Below, piece after piece: positions 29,706-36,587 of a stretch of DNA of 64,000 nt; position 1 is the first letter of the stretch; each line of letters starts with the position of its first letter. The translations under genes were made by a program, and so were the position numbers. The stretch is from Roseovarius sp. MMSF_3281. Lineage in GTDB: Bacteria > Pseudomonadota > Alphaproteobacteria > Rhodobacterales > Rhodobacteraceae. Under the pieces are notes generated by a model that was not told the DNA's origin, made no database searches, and worked only from the letters and a program-made list of their open reading frames with translations. The DNA is taken from assembly GCF_030733685.1 (NCBI RefSeq), contig NZ_JASHIM010000013.1:1-64000 (forward strand), written 5' to 3'.

Positions 29706-29751
29706 CTTCACCACCTTTCTCTCACCCGGGGGCAGGGATATCAGGCGGGCA

Positions 29752-29782
29752 TTAATGGCCGCTTAACATTTACAATTGTTAA
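29752..29782. promoter_or_regulatory. Perfect CtrA box before motB
   Basis: TTAA (29752-29755), seven bases, TTAA (29763-29766): an exact match to TTAA-N7-TTAA. A third TTAA half-site follows at 29779-29782. The site is 47 bases upstream of the motB start, the expected place for CtrA activation of a minus-strand promoter. Confidence 0.6.
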
Positions 29783-29794
29783 GACTTTGGCGTT

Positions 29795-29874
29795 TCGTAC
29801 GACTCGTACGATCATCTTCCAGACCCCTGCGGTTTTCGTACGAAAACCGGCGGTCGGTCGTACGACTCGTACGA
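29795..29874. repeat. Five-copy TCGTACGA palindrome array upstream of motB
   Basis: The 8-bp palindrome TCGTACGA occurs at 29795, 29804, 29836, 29858 and 29867. The outer copies form two tandem pairs with nine-base spacing; the middle copy is the core of a perfect 18-bp palindrome (29831-29848). The array fills the space between the exonuclease-fusion stop codon (29878) and the motB CtrA box. Regular spacing and exact repetition suggest binding sites for an unknown regulator. Confidence 0.65.
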
Positions 29875-29877
29875 AAA

Positions 29878-31932
29878 TCAGTAATCCTGCGCCTTGCGGA
29901 TTTTGGTCATCCTTTGTCCGGCGGCAATGGCATCGCCAAGGGTGTGAATCCCGGCCGCCTGCATCACCCCGATCATCTGCAGGAACACCTCTGCCGTCGC
30001 CATGGCATCGCCCAGCGCGGTGTGCCGCAATTCCGGCGATATTGTCACGCCGAACCGTTCGGCCAAGGCATCCAAGGTATGCTCGCCCGTATGTTCGTAA
30101 AGTGCCGCAGACAGAAGAACGGTACATAGAACCGGGTGGTCAAACTGTTGCCCGATCACGGGTTCATCGCGCCTGAGAAAGGCCATATCGAAGGGCGCGT
30201 TATGGGCAACAAGCACGCCGCCCTCGCAATACCTATGAAACGCCTTCCCTGCCGCCACGATATCTGGGGCCTCGGTGACCATATCATCGCTGATGCCATG
30301 CACCTTGGTCGAGGTCGGCGGGATCGGGCAACCGGGGTTGACCAGCGTGTCGAACACCTCTCCCCGCAGGATACGCCCATTGACGATCCGAACGCCCGCA
30401 ATCTGCACGATCCTGTCTCCGCCGCTGGGCGCAAGGCCCGTTGTCTCGGTGTCGAAGACAACAAACGACAGATCCGAAAGCTTCCGCTCGGCGATCTCGC
30501 CAACATTCGTCGGCAAGTTGAAGTCATAGAACTCGGGCCGCACATCTCCCGCGGCCAGGGAAGGCGCGCCCGACGCGTCGAGTGGAAGCACGATGCGATG
30601 CCCGTAACCCCCTGTTTCTGACCAGATTTCCGTGCGATGCCCTTCCACGACATCGCGCCCCGAATAAGCGCCATAGCTTTCCGACAAGGGCTGTTTCAGC
30701 CATGTCTCAAGGTCGCTTTCACGGACCTCGGTGCCTTGCCATTGCACGCTTAGCCAGACCTCGGCGCCATGTCGTTCGGCCCGCAAGGCAAACTCATCGC
30801 GCCCCGCGTCCTGCGACAGGCCCTGCACGACGCGGGCCATGACCTCCATGATGGCAAAGCCATCACACCGCAGGAAATGCGCGCCACCCTCGGTTTTCAC
30901 GGGCAGGTCAACACGCGCCTTCAGCCCTTCAAGGATGTCATCCGCCGCCACTCTGGACATCGGCCAATGGCGTGTGGTGATTTGCGCATGCCGGGCATCA
31001 ACCTCACGCAGGCAATTGAAAAGGCGCGATAATTCTTCGTTCATCGCGGCATCGAAGGTGGCCCGCGTTTTGGGCGGAATATCCGCGTCCGACTGCAAGA
31101 CATCCAGAACCGCACCAATCGCCGCCGCCGGGCGACGGACTTCTTCCATCAGCGTGTTGAACAGGTGGTCCCGCTCGGCATGGGCCTGCAAATCCTCGGT
31201 CGCGTCATGGAAAATCAGGACATGACCCAAACGGTCCTCCCCCGACAAAACCGGGCTCACCCGCCCCAACAAGAAGCGTTCGCCATCCGTTGTCGGCACA
31301 AGGAAACTTTCGGCCTCCGAATGGCCCCGCGCCAGGTTTCTGTCCAAACGCTCAATCGCGTGGTTCAAGGGGTCCAATCTTATGTACGCGCGCAATGGCC
31401 GGTCCAACCCCAGATCGCCCAGCAAATCCTCGGCCGCGCGGTTGAACAGCATCAGGCGGTTGTCAGGCGTCACCACCACGACCCCTTCGGCCAAATCCCG
31501 CAGCAAGGCCTCGAACAGGGCCTTTTCGCGCGCCAGGCGGTCGGTTTCGCGCGCAACGGCGCGTTCCTGTGCCTCGCGGGCTTCGGAAAGGGCTTCGTGA
31601 ATGGCCCGCGCCGCCGGGGCCAAGGCCCCCAGATAGCGGGCCTGTTCCTCGTCTATCCCGGCCCCGACATCGGCCCGCGCCCGGGTATTCAAATCCGAGG
31701 CCAGCCCAAGGATCGGGTGTGCCACGTTCTCATCGAAAAGGTAACCGATCCAGGCGGTTAACCCCAGGATACCAAACCCCGCCGCAAGCCCGGCCAGGAC
31801 ATAACCATCGACCGGCCCGCCATTGCGACCATAGCCAAGCCACAGGGCACCGATCAGGATCGCAACGCCCCCAAGGCCAAGCGCCGCGAAGAACAATGCA
31901 AAGCGCAATCGCAATCCAAAACGCTCACGCAT
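29878..31932 (-). CDS. Membrane PAS / degenerate histidine kinase fused to a DEDDh 3'-5' exonuclease
   Basis: A 684-residue fusion. Two membrane helices lie near residues 8-33 and 43-66, followed by a coiled linker (85-135), a PAS-like domain (about 138-245), a HisKA-like helix pair (252-315), a decayed ATPase-like domain (320-452), and a DnaQ-type exonuclease (488-660). Exonuclease motifs look complete: D494 and E496 (FDTETTG), D582 (HNAPFD) and H637/D642 (HTALGD). At the kinase H-box the sequence is EEVRRPAAAI, with Glu263 where the phospho-accepting His should be, and the N and G boxes are not recognisable. So the nuclease should be active and the kinase should not. Its ATG overlaps the response-regulator end by eight bases. 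The substrate, DNA or RNA, is unknown. Confidence 0.85.
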   Translation of the reverse strand: MRERFGLRLRFALFFAALGLGGVAILIGALWLGYGRNGGPVDGYVLAGLAAGFGILGLTAWIGYLFDENVAHPILGLASDLNTRARADVGAGIDEEQARYLGALAPAARAIHEALSEAREAQERAVARETDRLAREKALFEALLRDLAEGVVVVTPDNRLMLFNRAAEDLLGDLGLDRPLRAYIRLDPLNHAIERLDRNLARGHSEAESFLVPTTDGERFLLGRVSPVLSGEDRLGHVLIFHDATEDLQAHAERDHLFNTLMEEVRRPAAAIGAVLDVLQSDADIPPKTRATFDAAMNEELSRLFNCLREVDARHAQITTRHWPMSRVAADDILEGLKARVDLPVKTEGGAHFLRCDGFAIMEVMARVVQGLSQDAGRDEFALRAERHGAEVWLSVQWQGTEVRESDLETWLKQPLSESYGAYSGRDVVEGHRTEIWSETGGYGHRIVLPLDASGAPSLAAGDVRPEFYDFNLPTNVGEIAERKLSDLSFVVFDTETTGLAPSGGDRIVQIAGVRIVNGRILRGEVFDTLVNPGCPIPPTSTKVHGISDDMVTEAPDIVAAGKAFHRYCEGGVLVAHNAPFDMAFLRRDEPVIGQQFDHPVLCTVLLSAALYEHTGEHTLDALAERFGVTISPELRHTALGDAMATAEVFLQMIGVMQAAGIHTLGDAIAAGQRMTKIRKAQDY

Positions 31933-32308
31933 TGGAGGGCTTTTCCAGCAGGGTCTTGATACGGTTGGTCAGGTCCGACGTGGCAAAGGGCTTGGTCATG
32001 AAATCATCGGCCCCAAGCGCCATGCCCTTGCGCCGCTCCACCTCGCCGCCACGGGCGGTCATCATCAGAACCTTGATATTTGCCAGCCTCGCGTCACGAC
32101 GGATGGATTGGCAAATCTCATATCCCGAACTGCCCGGAAGCATGACATCCAACACCACCAGATCGGGGTGATCCTTGACAATCGCCTCCATCGCCCGGGT
32201 GCCATCCGCAATCCGTTTCAGGGTATATCCCTGCCGCGCGATCAGGTGCTCAAGGGCAAGGGCGATATTGTCCTCGTCCTCCACCAGCAATACTTTCTTC
32301 CCCTCCAT
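31925..32308 (-). CDS. Single-domain response regulator
   Basis: A 127-residue receiver domain with no output domain. The acidic pair E10/D11, phospho-acceptor Asp54 (VVLDVMLPG), Thr84 and Lys106 (MTKPF) are all present, so phosphorylation should be possible. The ATG at 32308 follows a GGGAGG site; upstream in-frame residues lie in the preceding gene. The neighbouring kinase-like protein lacks the phospho-donor His, so its phosphate must come from another kinase or a small donor. Confidence 0.9.
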   Translation of the reverse strand: MEGKKVLLVEDEDNIALALEHLIARQGYTLKRIADGTRAMEAIVKDHPDLVVLDVMLPGSSGYEICQSIRRDARLANIKVLMMTARGGEVERRKGMALGADDFMTKPFATSDLTNRIKTLLEKPSNA

Positions 32309-32328: not shown

Positions 32329-32838
32329 TCAATCGGTGCAGACCGCACCGTAAATCGGATCCGCCCGCGTCACCGGCAACCATTTGGCCGCCTCCTCGGG
32401 ATCGGCAAGCGCCGCTTCGGTCGCAAGCGCGCGGGCCGGGTCATCACAACGGACCAGTTCCATCACCTTCCCCGGCGCCTGCCACCGTTCGAACAAATAC
32501 AGATCGACAAGCCGCGCGCCTTGAACTGAATCATTTTCGCGGATTGCCGCGACATCCGCGGCCATGATGCGTGTCGTCTGGGGCACAACATAGGTCCAGG
32601 GCTTCCAGAAACGCGATACCTCGACGGTGTCGATCACCTCGACCCCCTCGGGCAGGGCCGCCTTGGTTCGGCCTGCCCAACTGTATTCCGACCAGATGGC
32701 AAAGCCGATCATGGTCACACCCGCCGCCACCGGCATGACCCATTTCGGCAAACGGTTGCCCGTCACCATGTTGATCACCAAGACAACGCCGGCAGCCGCG
32801 AACCCGGCAACAAAACTGGCTATTAGTTCCATGAACAT
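32329..32838 (-). CDS. Small membrane protein of unknown function
   Basis: A 169-residue protein with two N-terminal membrane helices (about residues 4-25 and 33-50) and a soluble C-terminal region containing FWKPWTYVVPQTTRIMAADV and Trp-rich segments. It lies six bases after the nucleotidyltransferase-like gene and 20 bases before the response regulator, so it belongs to the same operon. I do not recognise a named family. Start could also be the ATG at 32832. Confidence 0.65.
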   Translation of the reverse strand: MFMELIASFVAGFAAAGVVLVINMVTGNRLPKWVMPVAAGVTMIGFAIWSEYSWAGRTKAALPEGVEVIDTVEVSRFWKPWTYVVPQTTRIMAADVAAIRENDSVQGARLVDLYLFERWQAPGKVMELVRCDDPARALATEAALADPEEAAKWLPVTRADPIYGAVCTD

Positions 32839-32844
32839 CGCGAT

Positions 32845-34686
32845 TTACCCCAATGCGCCTTTGCCCTGCCCGACCGCCGATTGCATGGTCTTGATCACCA
32901 TGAAGGCATCGCGCAGATGGTTGCGTTCCAACTCCGAAAGCGCCCCGGGCGCCATGAAATTATCGGGGCTTTCCCCATTCCTGATCTGCATGGCCTGATG
33001 GCGCAGGCGGGTTTCCGCGATCAGCTCGTAAGCATCCAACAGGTCATGCGCGCCCGATTGGGAAATCACGCCCCTTTCGCGGGCCTCTTCGATCCGATCA
33101 AGCGTATTCACCGCCTCGAACCCGCCCTGCAAGGCATAGATCCGGCCCAGATCCACCACCGGCACCACGCCGGAAAGCTTCAGGTCCACCATGTTCTTGT
33201 GCTCCCCCGACCGGATCAGGGCAAAACCCCGGAACAGGTTCAAAGGCGGCGTATGCTTGAGCGAGTTGGAAATCATATGCGCCACGAAGATCGAATTCTT
33301 CTGCGCCATTGCAAGGGTTGCGGCCTGCATATCCTCGAAAAGGGTTTCATCCCCGGCAATCGGGCGCAGATCGAACATGACCGAGGCCAGCATTTGCGCC
33401 TCGTTGTCGGGCTGTGCGATCCAGCCTTTGAAGTACTCCTGCCAGACCCGGCGGGGTTGGCGCCAACGCGGGTTGGTGGCCATCATGTCGCCGGGGCAAT
33501 AGATGAACCCACAGGTATTCAGCCCATCACTGACAAACTGTGCCAGCCGGGCGAAATAGGCGTCATGCTCGGGCGTCATGTCATCGTGCAGGATCAGGCA
33601 ATTGTCCTGATCCGATAGCCCGGTCTGTTCGCGCCGGCCCTGGCTTCCACAGGCCAGCCATAGATAGGGCACCGGCGCAGGGCCAAGCTTTTCCTCGCCC
33701 AGAACCAGCAAACGCCGGGTGATCGCATCGGTGATATCGGTGATCCGCCGCGTGACCGCCTGCGGCCGGGTGCCCGCGCTTACCAGTTGCGACAAAAGCT
33801 CCGGCACACGGTGCATCACCTGCGCCATGGTCTCGGCATCATCGGCCTGCACGATATCGGCGATCATGTGGCTGGCCGTGGCGGCCTGTCGGCGGAACAG
33901 GTCGGTCTTGCCGATCATCCCCACGATACGGCCCCGGGATTCCACGGGCAGGTGGTTGATCCCGTGGTCCGACATCATCATCAAGGCATCCAGCCCAAGG
34001 GCATCGGGCGCGATTGTCATCGGCTTGGGCGTCATCACCTGCGCCACGGGGATATCCCCGGTCAGGCCCTCGGCCAAGACCTTGTTGGTCATGTCATGCA
34101 CGGTGACAATGCCGGTCAGCGCCGTATCCTCCATCACCAGAACCGAGGAAATCTTCTTGTCGCGCATCACCCGCGCCACATCTGTCACGCTGTTGGTTTC
34201 CGGGCAGGTCACCGGCGTTTGTGCCATCAGGTCCGCAACCTGCAAGGCGGTCAGGCCCGTCGCGTAAGGGCCTTCATCCCGCTCCCCGTCGGCAGGGGCA
34301 GAGCGGCCGAACCAAGCCGACAGGTCTTCACTACTTTCCAAGGCGGTCAGGAACACCTTGGCCGGGATCAAGATAAGCTGACTGTCCTCGGTCACCCGCG
34401 CGGTCAGCATGGCCCGCCCGTCTCGCAACAGGCCCCGCTCCCCCATGATATCGCCCGGGCCCCGCTGCGAAATCAGGTCGGCGTTGCTCGACTCGATATC
34501 CAGCATGCCGCGCTCCACAAGGTATAACCCCTCAAGCGGCCCACCTTCCTTGAACAAAACCGTCCCGGCAGGGGCGGTGATGCGACTGGCCGCTTTGGCA
34601 AGCGATCGGCGCTTGGCCTCGGACAGCATGTCGAAAGGGGCGTTATGGGTCAGAACATGCAGAATCTCTGCGGGGCTTTCGGCCAT
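32845..34686 (-). CDS. cNMP-binding / CBS pair / DUF294 nucleotidyltransferase-like protein
   Basis: A 613-residue cytoplasmic protein with a cyclic-nucleotide-binding fold (about 18-125), two CBS motifs (about 150-270), and a DUF294 nucleotidyltransferase domain whose core GSQGRRE (347-353) and D359/D361 match the GS...GR...D-x-D pattern. The remaining third is helical. Proteins of this type are regularly encoded beside VC_2705-type symporters, and the symporter is the neighbour here. It likely senses nucleotide state and modifies a protein or nucleotide partner; the actual substrate is unknown. Confidence 0.88.
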   Translation of the reverse strand: MAESPAEILHVLTHNAPFDMLSEAKRRSLAKAASRITAPAGTVLFKEGGPLEGLYLVERGMLDIESSNADLISQRGPGDIMGERGLLRDGRAMLTARVTEDSQLILIPAKVFLTALESSEDLSAWFGRSAPADGERDEGPYATGLTALQVADLMAQTPVTCPETNSVTDVARVMRDKKISSVLVMEDTALTGIVTVHDMTNKVLAEGLTGDIPVAQVMTPKPMTIAPDALGLDALMMMSDHGINHLPVESRGRIVGMIGKTDLFRRQAATASHMIADIVQADDAETMAQVMHRVPELLSQLVSAGTRPQAVTRRITDITDAITRRLLVLGEEKLGPAPVPYLWLACGSQGRREQTGLSDQDNCLILHDDMTPEHDAYFARLAQFVSDGLNTCGFIYCPGDMMATNPRWRQPRRVWQEYFKGWIAQPDNEAQMLASVMFDLRPIAGDETLFEDMQAATLAMAQKNSIFVAHMISNSLKHTPPLNLFRGFALIRSGEHKNMVDLKLSGVVPVVDLGRIYALQGGFEAVNTLDRIEEARERGVISQSGAHDLLDAYELIAETRLRHQAMQIRNGESPDNFMAPGALSELERNHLRDAFMVIKTMQSAVGQGKGALG

Positions 34687-34802: not shown

Positions 34803-36587
34803 CTAGTGATCGGCAGCAGCCGCGCCTGCACCTTTCGGCACGCGGACACTTTCGACCAGATCGTCGATTTCCTGCGGGATCGGATCGCTCGATTTCGACA
34901 CGATGAAGGCCACGGCAAAGTTGATCATCGCACCAACCGCCCCGAAGGAGGTCGACTTGATGGTCCCAAGCAGCGGATCGGCATCGGTGAAGCTGTTCGT
35001 ATCCGGGATGAAGAACCACCCCTTATGCAGGAAGATATAAACCAGCGTCACGATCAGACCGGCCAACATGCCCGCCACGGCGCCCTTGTTGTTCACCTTG
35101 GTAAAGATGCCCATCATCAGCGCCGGGAAGATCGAAGCCGCCGCCAGACCAAAGGCAAGCGCCACGGTCTGCGCCGCGAAACCCGGCGGGTTCAAGCCCA
35201 GGTAGGAGGCCACGACAATGGCCACCGCCATCGCGATACGGGCCGACAGAAGTTCGCCCTTCTCGCTGATGTTCGGGTTGAACTGCCCCTTCACAAGGTC
35301 ATGGCTCACCGCCGACGAGATCGCCAGCAGGAGGCCCGCCGCCGTGGACAGGGCCGCCGCCAGACCACCAGCCGCAACCAGACCGATCACCCAACCCGGC
35401 AGGTTGGCGATCTCGGGGTTGGCCAGAACAAGGATATCGCGGTTGAAATTGGTCAGTTCATTGCCTTCCCAACCGGCTTCGGCGGCCTTGGCCTGCATCT
35501 CGGCATTGCCGTCGTTGTAGTACTGGATGCGGCCATCGCCGTTCTTGTCTTCCCAACCCAAAAGGCCAGTGGTCTGCCATGTCGCCATCCAGTCATAGGC
35601 CGGGTCGCTTTCGATCTGCTCAACCGAAACGGCCTGACCGCTGGTGCCTTCCGGCCACATCAACTCGGTGATGTTGAGACGCGCCATGGCGCCAACCGCC
35701 GGGGCCGTAAGGTAAAGCAAGGCAATGAAGACAAGCGCCCAACCAGCCGACCAACGGGCATCCGCCACCTTGGGCACGGTAAAGAAGCGCATGATCACGT
35801 GCGGCAGACCCGCAGTCCCGATCATCAGCGACAGGGTGAACAGCACCATGTTCAGCGTATCGGCGTGGTGCGCGGTATACTCGTTAAAGCCCAGTTCGGT
35901 CACGATCTGGTCCAGCTTGGCCAGAAGCGGCTCACCCGAAGCGGCGTGATCACCGAACAGGCCAAGCGCCGGAATCGGGTTGCCGGTCAGTTGCAGCGAG
36001 ATGAAGATCGCCGGGATGGTATAGGCAAGGATAAGCACGATGTACTGCGCCACCTGCGTATAGGTCACACCCTTCATGCCGCCGAAAACGGCATAGGCGA
36101 ACACCACACAGGCCCCGATCAAAAGGCCGGTCGTGTTGTCCACCTCAAGGAAGCGGCCAAAGGCCACGCCCACGCCGGTCATCTGGCCGATCACATAGGT
36201 GGTCGAGGCCACGATCAAACAGATCACGGCAACCAATCGCGCGGTGGGGCTGTAGAAACGGTCACCGATAAATTCCGACACGGTGAATTTGCCGAACTTC
36301 CGCAGGTACGGGGCCAGCAGCAGCGCCAGAAGCACGTAACCACCGGTCCACCCCATCAGGAAGGACGAGTTGTCATAGCCGGTAAAGGCAATCAGACCCG
36401 CCATCGAGATGAACGAGGCCGCCGACATCCAGTCGGCTGCCGTCGCCATACCGTTGGTCACCGGGTGAACGCCACGCCCGGCGGCGTAGAATTCGCTGGT
36501 CGATCCGGCACGCGCCCAGATGGCGATCCCGATATAAAGCGCGAAAGACGCGCCGACGAAAAGCAGGTTAAGTGTAAACTGATCCAT
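34803..36587 (-). CDS. Sodium:solute symporter, VC_2705 subfamily (ActP-like)
   Basis: A 594-residue polytopic membrane protein of the SSS family with about 13 helices. It has the family segments ATAADWMSAASFISMAGLI, GGMKGVTYTQVAQYIVLI and LPHVIMRFFTVP. A hydrophilic insertion (about 320-390) between helices contains an acidic, Asp/Gly-rich loop (WEDKNGDGRIQYY) that looks like a calcium-binding EF-type loop. Relatives include acetate permease ActP. The DUF4212 small subunit 11 bases upstream places it in the VC_2705 subfamily. The substrate is probably a short carboxylate. Confidence 0.9.
   Translation of the reverse strand: MDQFTLNLLFVGASFALYIGIAIWARAGSTSEFYAAGRGVHPVTNGMATAADWMSAASFISMAGLIAFTGYDNSSFLMGWTGGYVLLALLLAPYLRKFGKFTVSEFIGDRFYSPTARLVAVICLIVASTTYVIGQMTGVGVAFGRFLEVDNTTGLLIGACVVFAYAVFGGMKGVTYTQVAQYIVLILAYTIPAIFISLQLTGNPIPALGLFGDHAASGEPLLAKLDQIVTELGFNEYTAHHADTLNMVLFTLSLMIGTAGLPHVIMRFFTVPKVADARWSAGWALVFIALLYLTAPAVGAMARLNITELMWPEGTSGQAVSVEQIESDPAYDWMATWQTTGLLGWEDKNGDGRIQYYNDGNAEMQAKAAEAGWEGNELTNFNRDILVLANPEIANLPGWVIGLVAAGGLAAALSTAAGLLLAISSAVSHDLVKGQFNPNISEKGELLSARIAMAVAIVVASYLGLNPPGFAAQTVALAFGLAAASIFPALMMGIFTKVNNKGAVAGMLAGLIVTLVYIFLHKGWFFIPDTNSFTDADPLLGTIKSTSFGAVGAMINFAVAFIVSKSSDPIPQEIDDLVESVRVPKGAGAAAADH

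Follow-up and report, generated by a model that had tools for sequence, protein, structure and literature searches.

Described systems that resemble the locus

To our knowledge, pseudokinases that read response regulators (RRs) are known in few cases. One is DivL of Caulobacter, which senses whether its RR is phosphorylated, as set out in the available sections of PMC4211667. The locus described here lies in a 64,000 nt stretch of Roseovarius DNA (hereafter the window), and encodes a membrane protein that parallels the DivL–DivK pair: its kinase-like region has a similar predicted DHp-CA fold (4q20_B, Z 13.8), its candidate partner is a single-domain RR and we infer that its core has been repurposed as an RR sensor. 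The outputs differ, in that an exonuclease is covalently attached here, whereas DivL controls another kinase. The phospho-acceptor position is mostly Glu or Asp in our family and Tyr in DivL, and the ATP-site boxes have also been lost here.

The CrbS/R and RpuS/R systems resemble the locus in combining an SLC5-type kinase with carboxylate uptake genes, as far as the accessible text of PMC5715377 and PMC9100948 describes them. A DUF294-type gene, Pflu5625, belongs to the CrbR regulon; its annotation lists cAMP-binding, CBS and nucleotidyltransferase domains, and its mutant showed no phenotype in the part of the study available (PMC5715377). CrbR and RpuR are LuxR-family regulators in the available portion of PMC9100948; in contrast, the RR of the window (127 aa) and that encoded beside the genome's SLC5-type kinase (C9; 124 aa) are single receiver domains, and the output proposed here is an enzyme. 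Of the features of CrbS/R, the genome has an SLC5-type histidine kinase, but neither of these two RRs is a LuxR-family regulator with a DNA-binding domain.

A further parallel comes from Pseudomonas putida, for which the available sections of PMC9927547 describe pp_0353 (RNase_T) and the CBS-domain gene pp_0354 as sharing an operon that is a target of MxtR/ErdR (CrbS/R). In those sections, deletion of either pp_0353 or actP-I impaired growth on pyruvate, growth on acetate or succinate was unimpaired when pp_0354 was deleted, and the Pseudomonas aeruginosa homologues of PP_0354/PP_0353 are placed next to actP and yjcH (PMC9927547). The operonic association of RNase_T and CBS-domain genes, with a functional tie to an ActP-type symporter, recalls the arrangement in the window. 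As described in the same sections, PP_0353 has an RNase_T match and no PAS domain or kinase core, and we liken it to the window protein by annotation and operon, not by descent.

The exonuclease domain shares its DEDDh type, its fold and the five catalytic residues with PolC and the DNA polymerase III epsilon subunit, but differs from them in falling below the NCBIfam equivalog cut-offs, in having no polymerase and in being attached to a membrane sensor. Among the matches listed in the openly licensed PMC literature, we found no paper on a kinase–exonuclease fusion of this kind. Nor did the listed matches in that literature include a paper on an RR-reading pseudokinase with an attached nuclease output.

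A membrane exonuclease with a degenerate kinase core

The coordinates of the gene, its domains and its neighbours are given in Table 1. In operon order, the genes encode the small and large symporter subunits, a CBS-DUF294 nucleotidyltransferase, a 169-aa protein, the single-domain RR and, last, the nuclease, the start of which is overlapped by 8 bases by the end of the RR gene. The 169-aa protein had no Pfam or NCBIfam match; it is kept in Rhodobacteraceae-type operons both with and without the pseudokinase. Directly 3′ of the nuclease gene, at 29741-29880, TCGTACGA palindromes occur repeatedly and may form a terminator or a repeat element.

Table 1. Features of the pseudokinase–exonuclease gene and its operon (positions within the window)
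Feature	Position	Strand	Basis or remark
TM-TM-PAS-pseudoDHp-pseudoCA-linker-DEDDh exonuclease, 684 aa (P0001)	29878..31932	-	single intact ORF, ATG at 31932
Two predicted TM helices, ~residues 7-35 and 44-66	31735..31914	-	hydrophobicity and AlphaFold helices; limits approximate
PAS domain, residues 139-246	31195..31518	-	Pfam PAS, PAS_4, PAS_8; AlphaFold model
Pseudo-DHp hairpin, residues 245-322	30967..31200	-	alignments, models, fold match
Glu263 codon replacing phospho-His	31144-31146	-	alignments
Pseudo-CA (ATPase-like) domain, residues 326-453, without N and G boxes	30574..30957	-	alignments, model, fold match
Near-invariant linker motif RPEFYDFNL, residues 465-473	30514..30540	-	alignments
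DEDDh (RNase_T) exonuclease domain, residues 491-650	29983..30462	-	Pfam E 4.4e-38; fold match
Single-domain RR, 127 aa, phospho-acceptor D54, T84, K106	31925..32308	-	
169-aa protein	32329..32838	-	found in Rhodobacteraceae-type operons
cNMP-binding/CBS/DUF294 nucleotidyltransferase, motif GSQGRREQTGLSDQD	32845..34686	-	
VC_2705-family sodium/solute symporter (TIGR03648)	34803..36587	-	812 bits against 320.75
Symporter small subunit (TIGR03647), 86 aa	36599..36859	-	109.1 bits against 26.05; GTG start chosen by analyst

A preliminary description of this gene, which gave no strand, had read a single frame joining two membrane helices, a PAS-like domain, a HisKA-like region with Glu at position 263, an ATPase-like domain without its boxes and a DEDDh exonuclease with all five catalytic residues, and each of these elements was borne out on the minus strand. 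Windows of 19 hydrophobic residues begin at residues 7-17 and 44-45, and the scan of the 684-aa protein placed the Pfam PAS match at residues 139-243 (E 1.3e-5). An AlphaFold model of the whole protein, built on a 24-row alignment (mean pLDDT 80.2, pTM 0.46), contained long helices at residues 245-280 and 287-322, followed by a CA-like domain and then the nuclease.

The wider family was sampled in two ways. A scan of a genome collection yielded 43 loci, in Roseovarius and other Rhodobacteraceae, Terasakiella, Beggiatoa, Glaciimonas, Rubrivivax and Desulfobacula among others, so that homologues extend over the Alpha-, Beta- and Gammaproteobacteria and also to Desulfobacula-type genomes. In profile searches, matches were obtained for 84 of 398 genomes at the level of the phylum (E<=1e-40; many of the weakest matches being plain exonucleases), 39 of 385 at that of the class (1e-50) and 137 of 295 at that of the family (1e-45). 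We classified 192 loci from the scan and the profile searches, picked as matches and not at random; those beyond the scan were all 29 listed from the phylum search (the window excepted), 20 further chosen loci, 60 chosen from the matches of the family search and another 40, of which 35 came from the class search and 5 from the family search. Reading frames ran from stop to stop with no choice of start, and X was changed to A during classification. The alignment of 168 rows comprised these loci minus 25, plus the window; left out were seven EXO-DUF294 fusions, three partial or unrelated loci (L027, L046 and L047) and 15 with an exonuclease (EXO) score <180. All counts are of sequences and do not represent independent events; L015 and L098, for example, have identical sequences in one tree.

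The possibility of a frameshift in the Roseovarius copy, named in the preliminary description as grounds for refutation, was not borne out, because homologues from several classes have their domains arranged likewise within one frame. A chimera or assembly artefact was likewise rejected, given the full-length, one-frame homologues in many genomes.

In the kinase-like core, the H-box reads NTLMEEVRRPAAAI, with Glu263 aligned to the phospho-His, and none of the N, G1 and G2 boxes of the CA domain could be recognized in the alignments. Neither HisKA nor HATPase_c was matched at E<=0.1 in the Pfam scan of the 684-aa protein. A full DHp (60 residues or more) was present in 122 rows, none of which has His at position 263; the residue there was Glu in 74 and Asp in 29, and Gln, Pro, Ala, Ser, Lys, Met, Gly, Leu or Thr in the remainder. 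The CA columns were filled in 137 rows, and the N, G1 and G2 patterns appeared in 0, 3 and 2 of them, respectively, whereas the H, N, G1 and G2 patterns were all kept in 15/15 SLC5 kinases chosen as controls. The 137 rows include three EamA fusions (L174, L175 and L177, which fill those columns or carry the pseudoHK-EXO label in our counts). An active kinase was ruled out on these residues.

The predicted fold of this region is nevertheless that of a kinase DHp-CA core. Folded alone, the DHp-CA region gave a mean pLDDT of 87.5, and the model matched CusS (Z 15.4, rmsd 11.5 Å over 185 residues), the CA domain of PrrB (Z 14.6, 2.3 Å over 122), HK853–RR468 (Z 13.8, 16.2 Å over 197) and DivL (14.6 Å over 198). 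Matches to the CA domain alone lay at ~2.3-3.1 Å, and most of those spanning both domains had an rmsd near or above 8 Å, from which the model suggests that the angle between DHp and CA differs from that in the matched kinases. In comparison with L005, which encodes a protein 93% identical, dN/dS was 0.047 for DHp, 0.146 for CA and 0.049 for the exonuclease; these low values, from one genome pair, indicate that the dead kinase is maintained, and on that pair a decaying passenger was ruled out.

The exonuclease domain itself is intact. The RNase_T match (PF00929) scored 131.8 bits against a cut-off of 24, all five catalytic residues are present (D494, E496, D582, H637 and D642), and the set was complete in 167 of the 168 rows, the exception, L193, being a match that ends early near a contig end. 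Its fold matched PolC (Z 24.4) and the DNA polymerase III epsilon subunit (Z 21.4), and the exonucleases of these proteins were the nearest in sequence as well as in fold; the sequence searches placed the domain with them and not with oligoribonuclease. The domain missed the cut-off of the epsilon equivalog TIGR01406 (114.4 against 222.7 bits) and passed that of the broader subfamily domain TIGR00573 (112.3 against 71.5 bits).

The sequence comparisons thus support across the family what the preliminary description had proposed for one protein, an intact, membrane-tethered nuclease below a kinase core that is no longer catalytic. The homologues that it named as contrary evidence, with an intact H-box and ATP lid, were not found, and the structure prediction that it suggested for the kinase-like region returned the fold of histidine kinases. 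In the alignment of homologues that it suggested, the boxes were almost always missing and DEDDh was kept, and position 263 varied but was never His. The arrangement is real and conserved, and is probably functional.

The response regulator and the DUF294 nucleotidyltransferase

The presence of the RR gene followed that of the DHp hairpin. An RR was encoded directly upstream in 114 of the 122 full-DHp rows, and in one of the 46 in which the DHp was shortened or missing; in a smaller set the corresponding counts were 100/106 and 1/36. The hairpin is missing from some relatives, many of them in the window's own family. Either the whole core has gone, which leaves TM-PAS-EXO proteins of ~470 aa, or the CA domain is kept. 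In 12 rows the pseudo-CA domain was kept and the hairpin shortened, and 11 of these lacked the RR. Counter-cases were eight full-DHp rows without an upstream RR, and L080, which has an RR and a shortened hairpin. In two loci without the pseudokinase (L169 and L170), an RR of the same type lies ~1.6 kb downstream, near an SLC5-kinase ORF. The phospho-acceptor Asp and the Lys were kept in 37/37 neighbouring RRs examined, with Thr or Ser at the Thr site.

On one tree, built with the columns of the trait excluded, a model of dependent DHp and RR change was preferred to one of independent change (LR 39.8, 4 df, p 5e-8), and on the same tree none of 5000 simulated RR histories reached the observed correlation. 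On supported branches there were six independent pairs; on average, the RR changed along with the DHp in 3.2 of them, in the opposite direction in 0 and not at all in 2.8; a sign test of co-change on these branches was not significant (median p 0.25), and repeats were similar. The co-occurrence counts suggest that the dead DHp-CA core is probably the docking site of the adjacent RR, as in DivL–DivK. The preliminary description had read the protein as a sensory pseudokinase. The architecture of the core stands, but that reading missed the operon partners and the likely RR input, and the pseudokinase is probably more than a relay for a PAS ligand.

We also considered where the phosphate might come from. 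ORFs resembling SLC5-type (CrbS-like) histidine kinases were found in 41 loci, in 23 of them >850 aa, and a genuine SLC5-type kinase is present at the locus in some other lineages; among full-DHp rows other than the window, such an ORF was seen in 35 of 121 fetched loci, many of which have short flanks. The Roseovarius genome contains one SLC5-type kinase (G000:C9), with 44% identity over residues 18-906 of the 933-aa L087 kinase. This kinase is accompanied by a single-domain RR of its own, and no other paralogue in the genome is closer to the window RR (E 5.9e-29; the next, 9.4e-22). The C9 locus (L206:7399-10732) has a 91-aa ORF between the kinase and the RR, and adjoins genes that, named by eye, encode an XRE-like regulator and ABC-uptake-like proteins. 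Within the window's family, an SLC5 kinase did not discriminate between genomes with the RR form (38/39) and those without it (31/36). As the presence of the kinase is not a marker of the RR form, we can only infer that the two are linked; the C9 kinase perhaps phosphorylates the window RR.

By gene neighbourhood and fusion, the regular partner of the nuclease is the DUF294 nucleotidyltransferase. Of the 90 loci that extend for 3.5 kb or more to either side of the nuclease, 78 contain DUF294 as a neighbour or as a fusion; the remaining 12 genomes all carry DUF294 elsewhere, compared with 4/14 control genomes. The gene in the operon is the only DUF294 match in the Roseovarius genome. The seven EXO-DUF294 fusions (L090-L094, L156 and L192) are single ORFs, two of which (L091 and L094) were checked by Pfam, and the catalytic motif of the nucleotidyltransferase was seen in the fusions displayed. 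The available text of PMC3710099 groups DUF294_C with the C-terminal domains of GlnD and GlnE.

The nuclease also occurs on other anchors or on none. In three loci (L174:4746-6263, L175:3774-5279 and L177:4903-6411), an EamA transporter-like domain precedes RNase_T of the same clade, with DUF294 nearby, so the nuclease is tethered to the membrane here as well, by a different anchor. The L178 protein (215 aa) is the nuclease domain alone. The linker motif RPEFYDFNL is near-invariant in the alignments, yet model confidence was <50 over residues 457-470, and the motif is missing from all seven EXO-DUF294 fusions. Docking of this motif towards DUF294 is left as a lead, because some fusions have little sequence ahead of the exonuclease.

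A model of regulated nuclease output and its alternatives

We consider it fairly probable, from sequence comparison, that the protein is an RR-gated, PAS-bearing membrane exonuclease that partners the DUF294 nucleotidyltransferase in the control of solute uptake. A kinase, perhaps the SLC5-type kinase encoded elsewhere in the genome, would phosphorylate the single-domain RR, which would dock on the catalytically dead DHp-CA core. The docked RR and the PAS signal together would switch the exonuclease at the membrane. The exonuclease and the operon's nucleotidyltransferase would act on a shared nucleotide-bearing substrate, and this chemistry would adjust uptake by the neighbouring symporter. 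A more specific version, which we regard as unlikely, is that the symporter or a partner, perhaps the 169-aa protein, receives a nucleotide or short oligonucleotide from the DUF294 protein, and that the RR-gated exonuclease trims this off, so that reversible nucleotidylation sets uptake.

The exonuclease could instead be a membrane-localized RNase that responds to a signal by breaking down specific mRNAs or small RNAs of carbon metabolism, with the nucleotidyltransferase as a separate metabolite sensor. This is possible, if rather doubtful: PolC and the epsilon subunit, its nearest relatives, act on polynucleotides, and mRNA decay was a speculation of Henriquez et al. for PP_0353 in the available part of their paper (PMC9927547), but the seven single-ORF EXO-DUF294 fusions fit a shared substrate better, and Pfam scans of the proteins examined revealed no RNA-binding domain. 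A different substrate is suggested by membership of the DEDDh family and by the nucleotide-sensing domains of the neighbouring protein. Orn-type DEDDh enzymes hydrolyse signalling di- and oligonucleotides, and the nuclease might do likewise, with the CBS and cNMP domains of the DUF294 protein reading the outcome; we find this improbable, as sequence searches group the domain away from oligoribonuclease and no cyclase or synthase was noted within the operon.

The role assigned to the core is also open to other readings. It could be a mere structural spacer that relays the PAS signal, with an RR that has an unrelated target and only shares the operon. The TM-PAS-EXO forms imply that the kinase core is dispensable, and this reading also accords with the non-significant sign test, but it sits poorly with the RR counts (114/122 against 1/46), with the support for dependent change on the one tree and with the loss of the hairpin together with the RR while CA stays, and we think it quite unlikely. 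It seems scarcely credible that the core still acts as a kinase by way of an atypical phospho-acceptor or ATP site: the retained fold and purifying selection would suit it, but not the range of residues at position 263 or the near-absence of N, G1 and G2 patterns that every control kinase kept.

Homologues of the protein occur widely, which makes the idea of an RR-gated exonuclease testable by comparison, including among natural forms that have lost the putative docking hairpin. The gene fusions tie DUF294 nucleotidyltransferases, a domain without an assigned function, to a nuclease partner. By analogy, the model may also offer a testable reason for the role of the exonuclease gene in the growth of P. 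putida on pyruvate.
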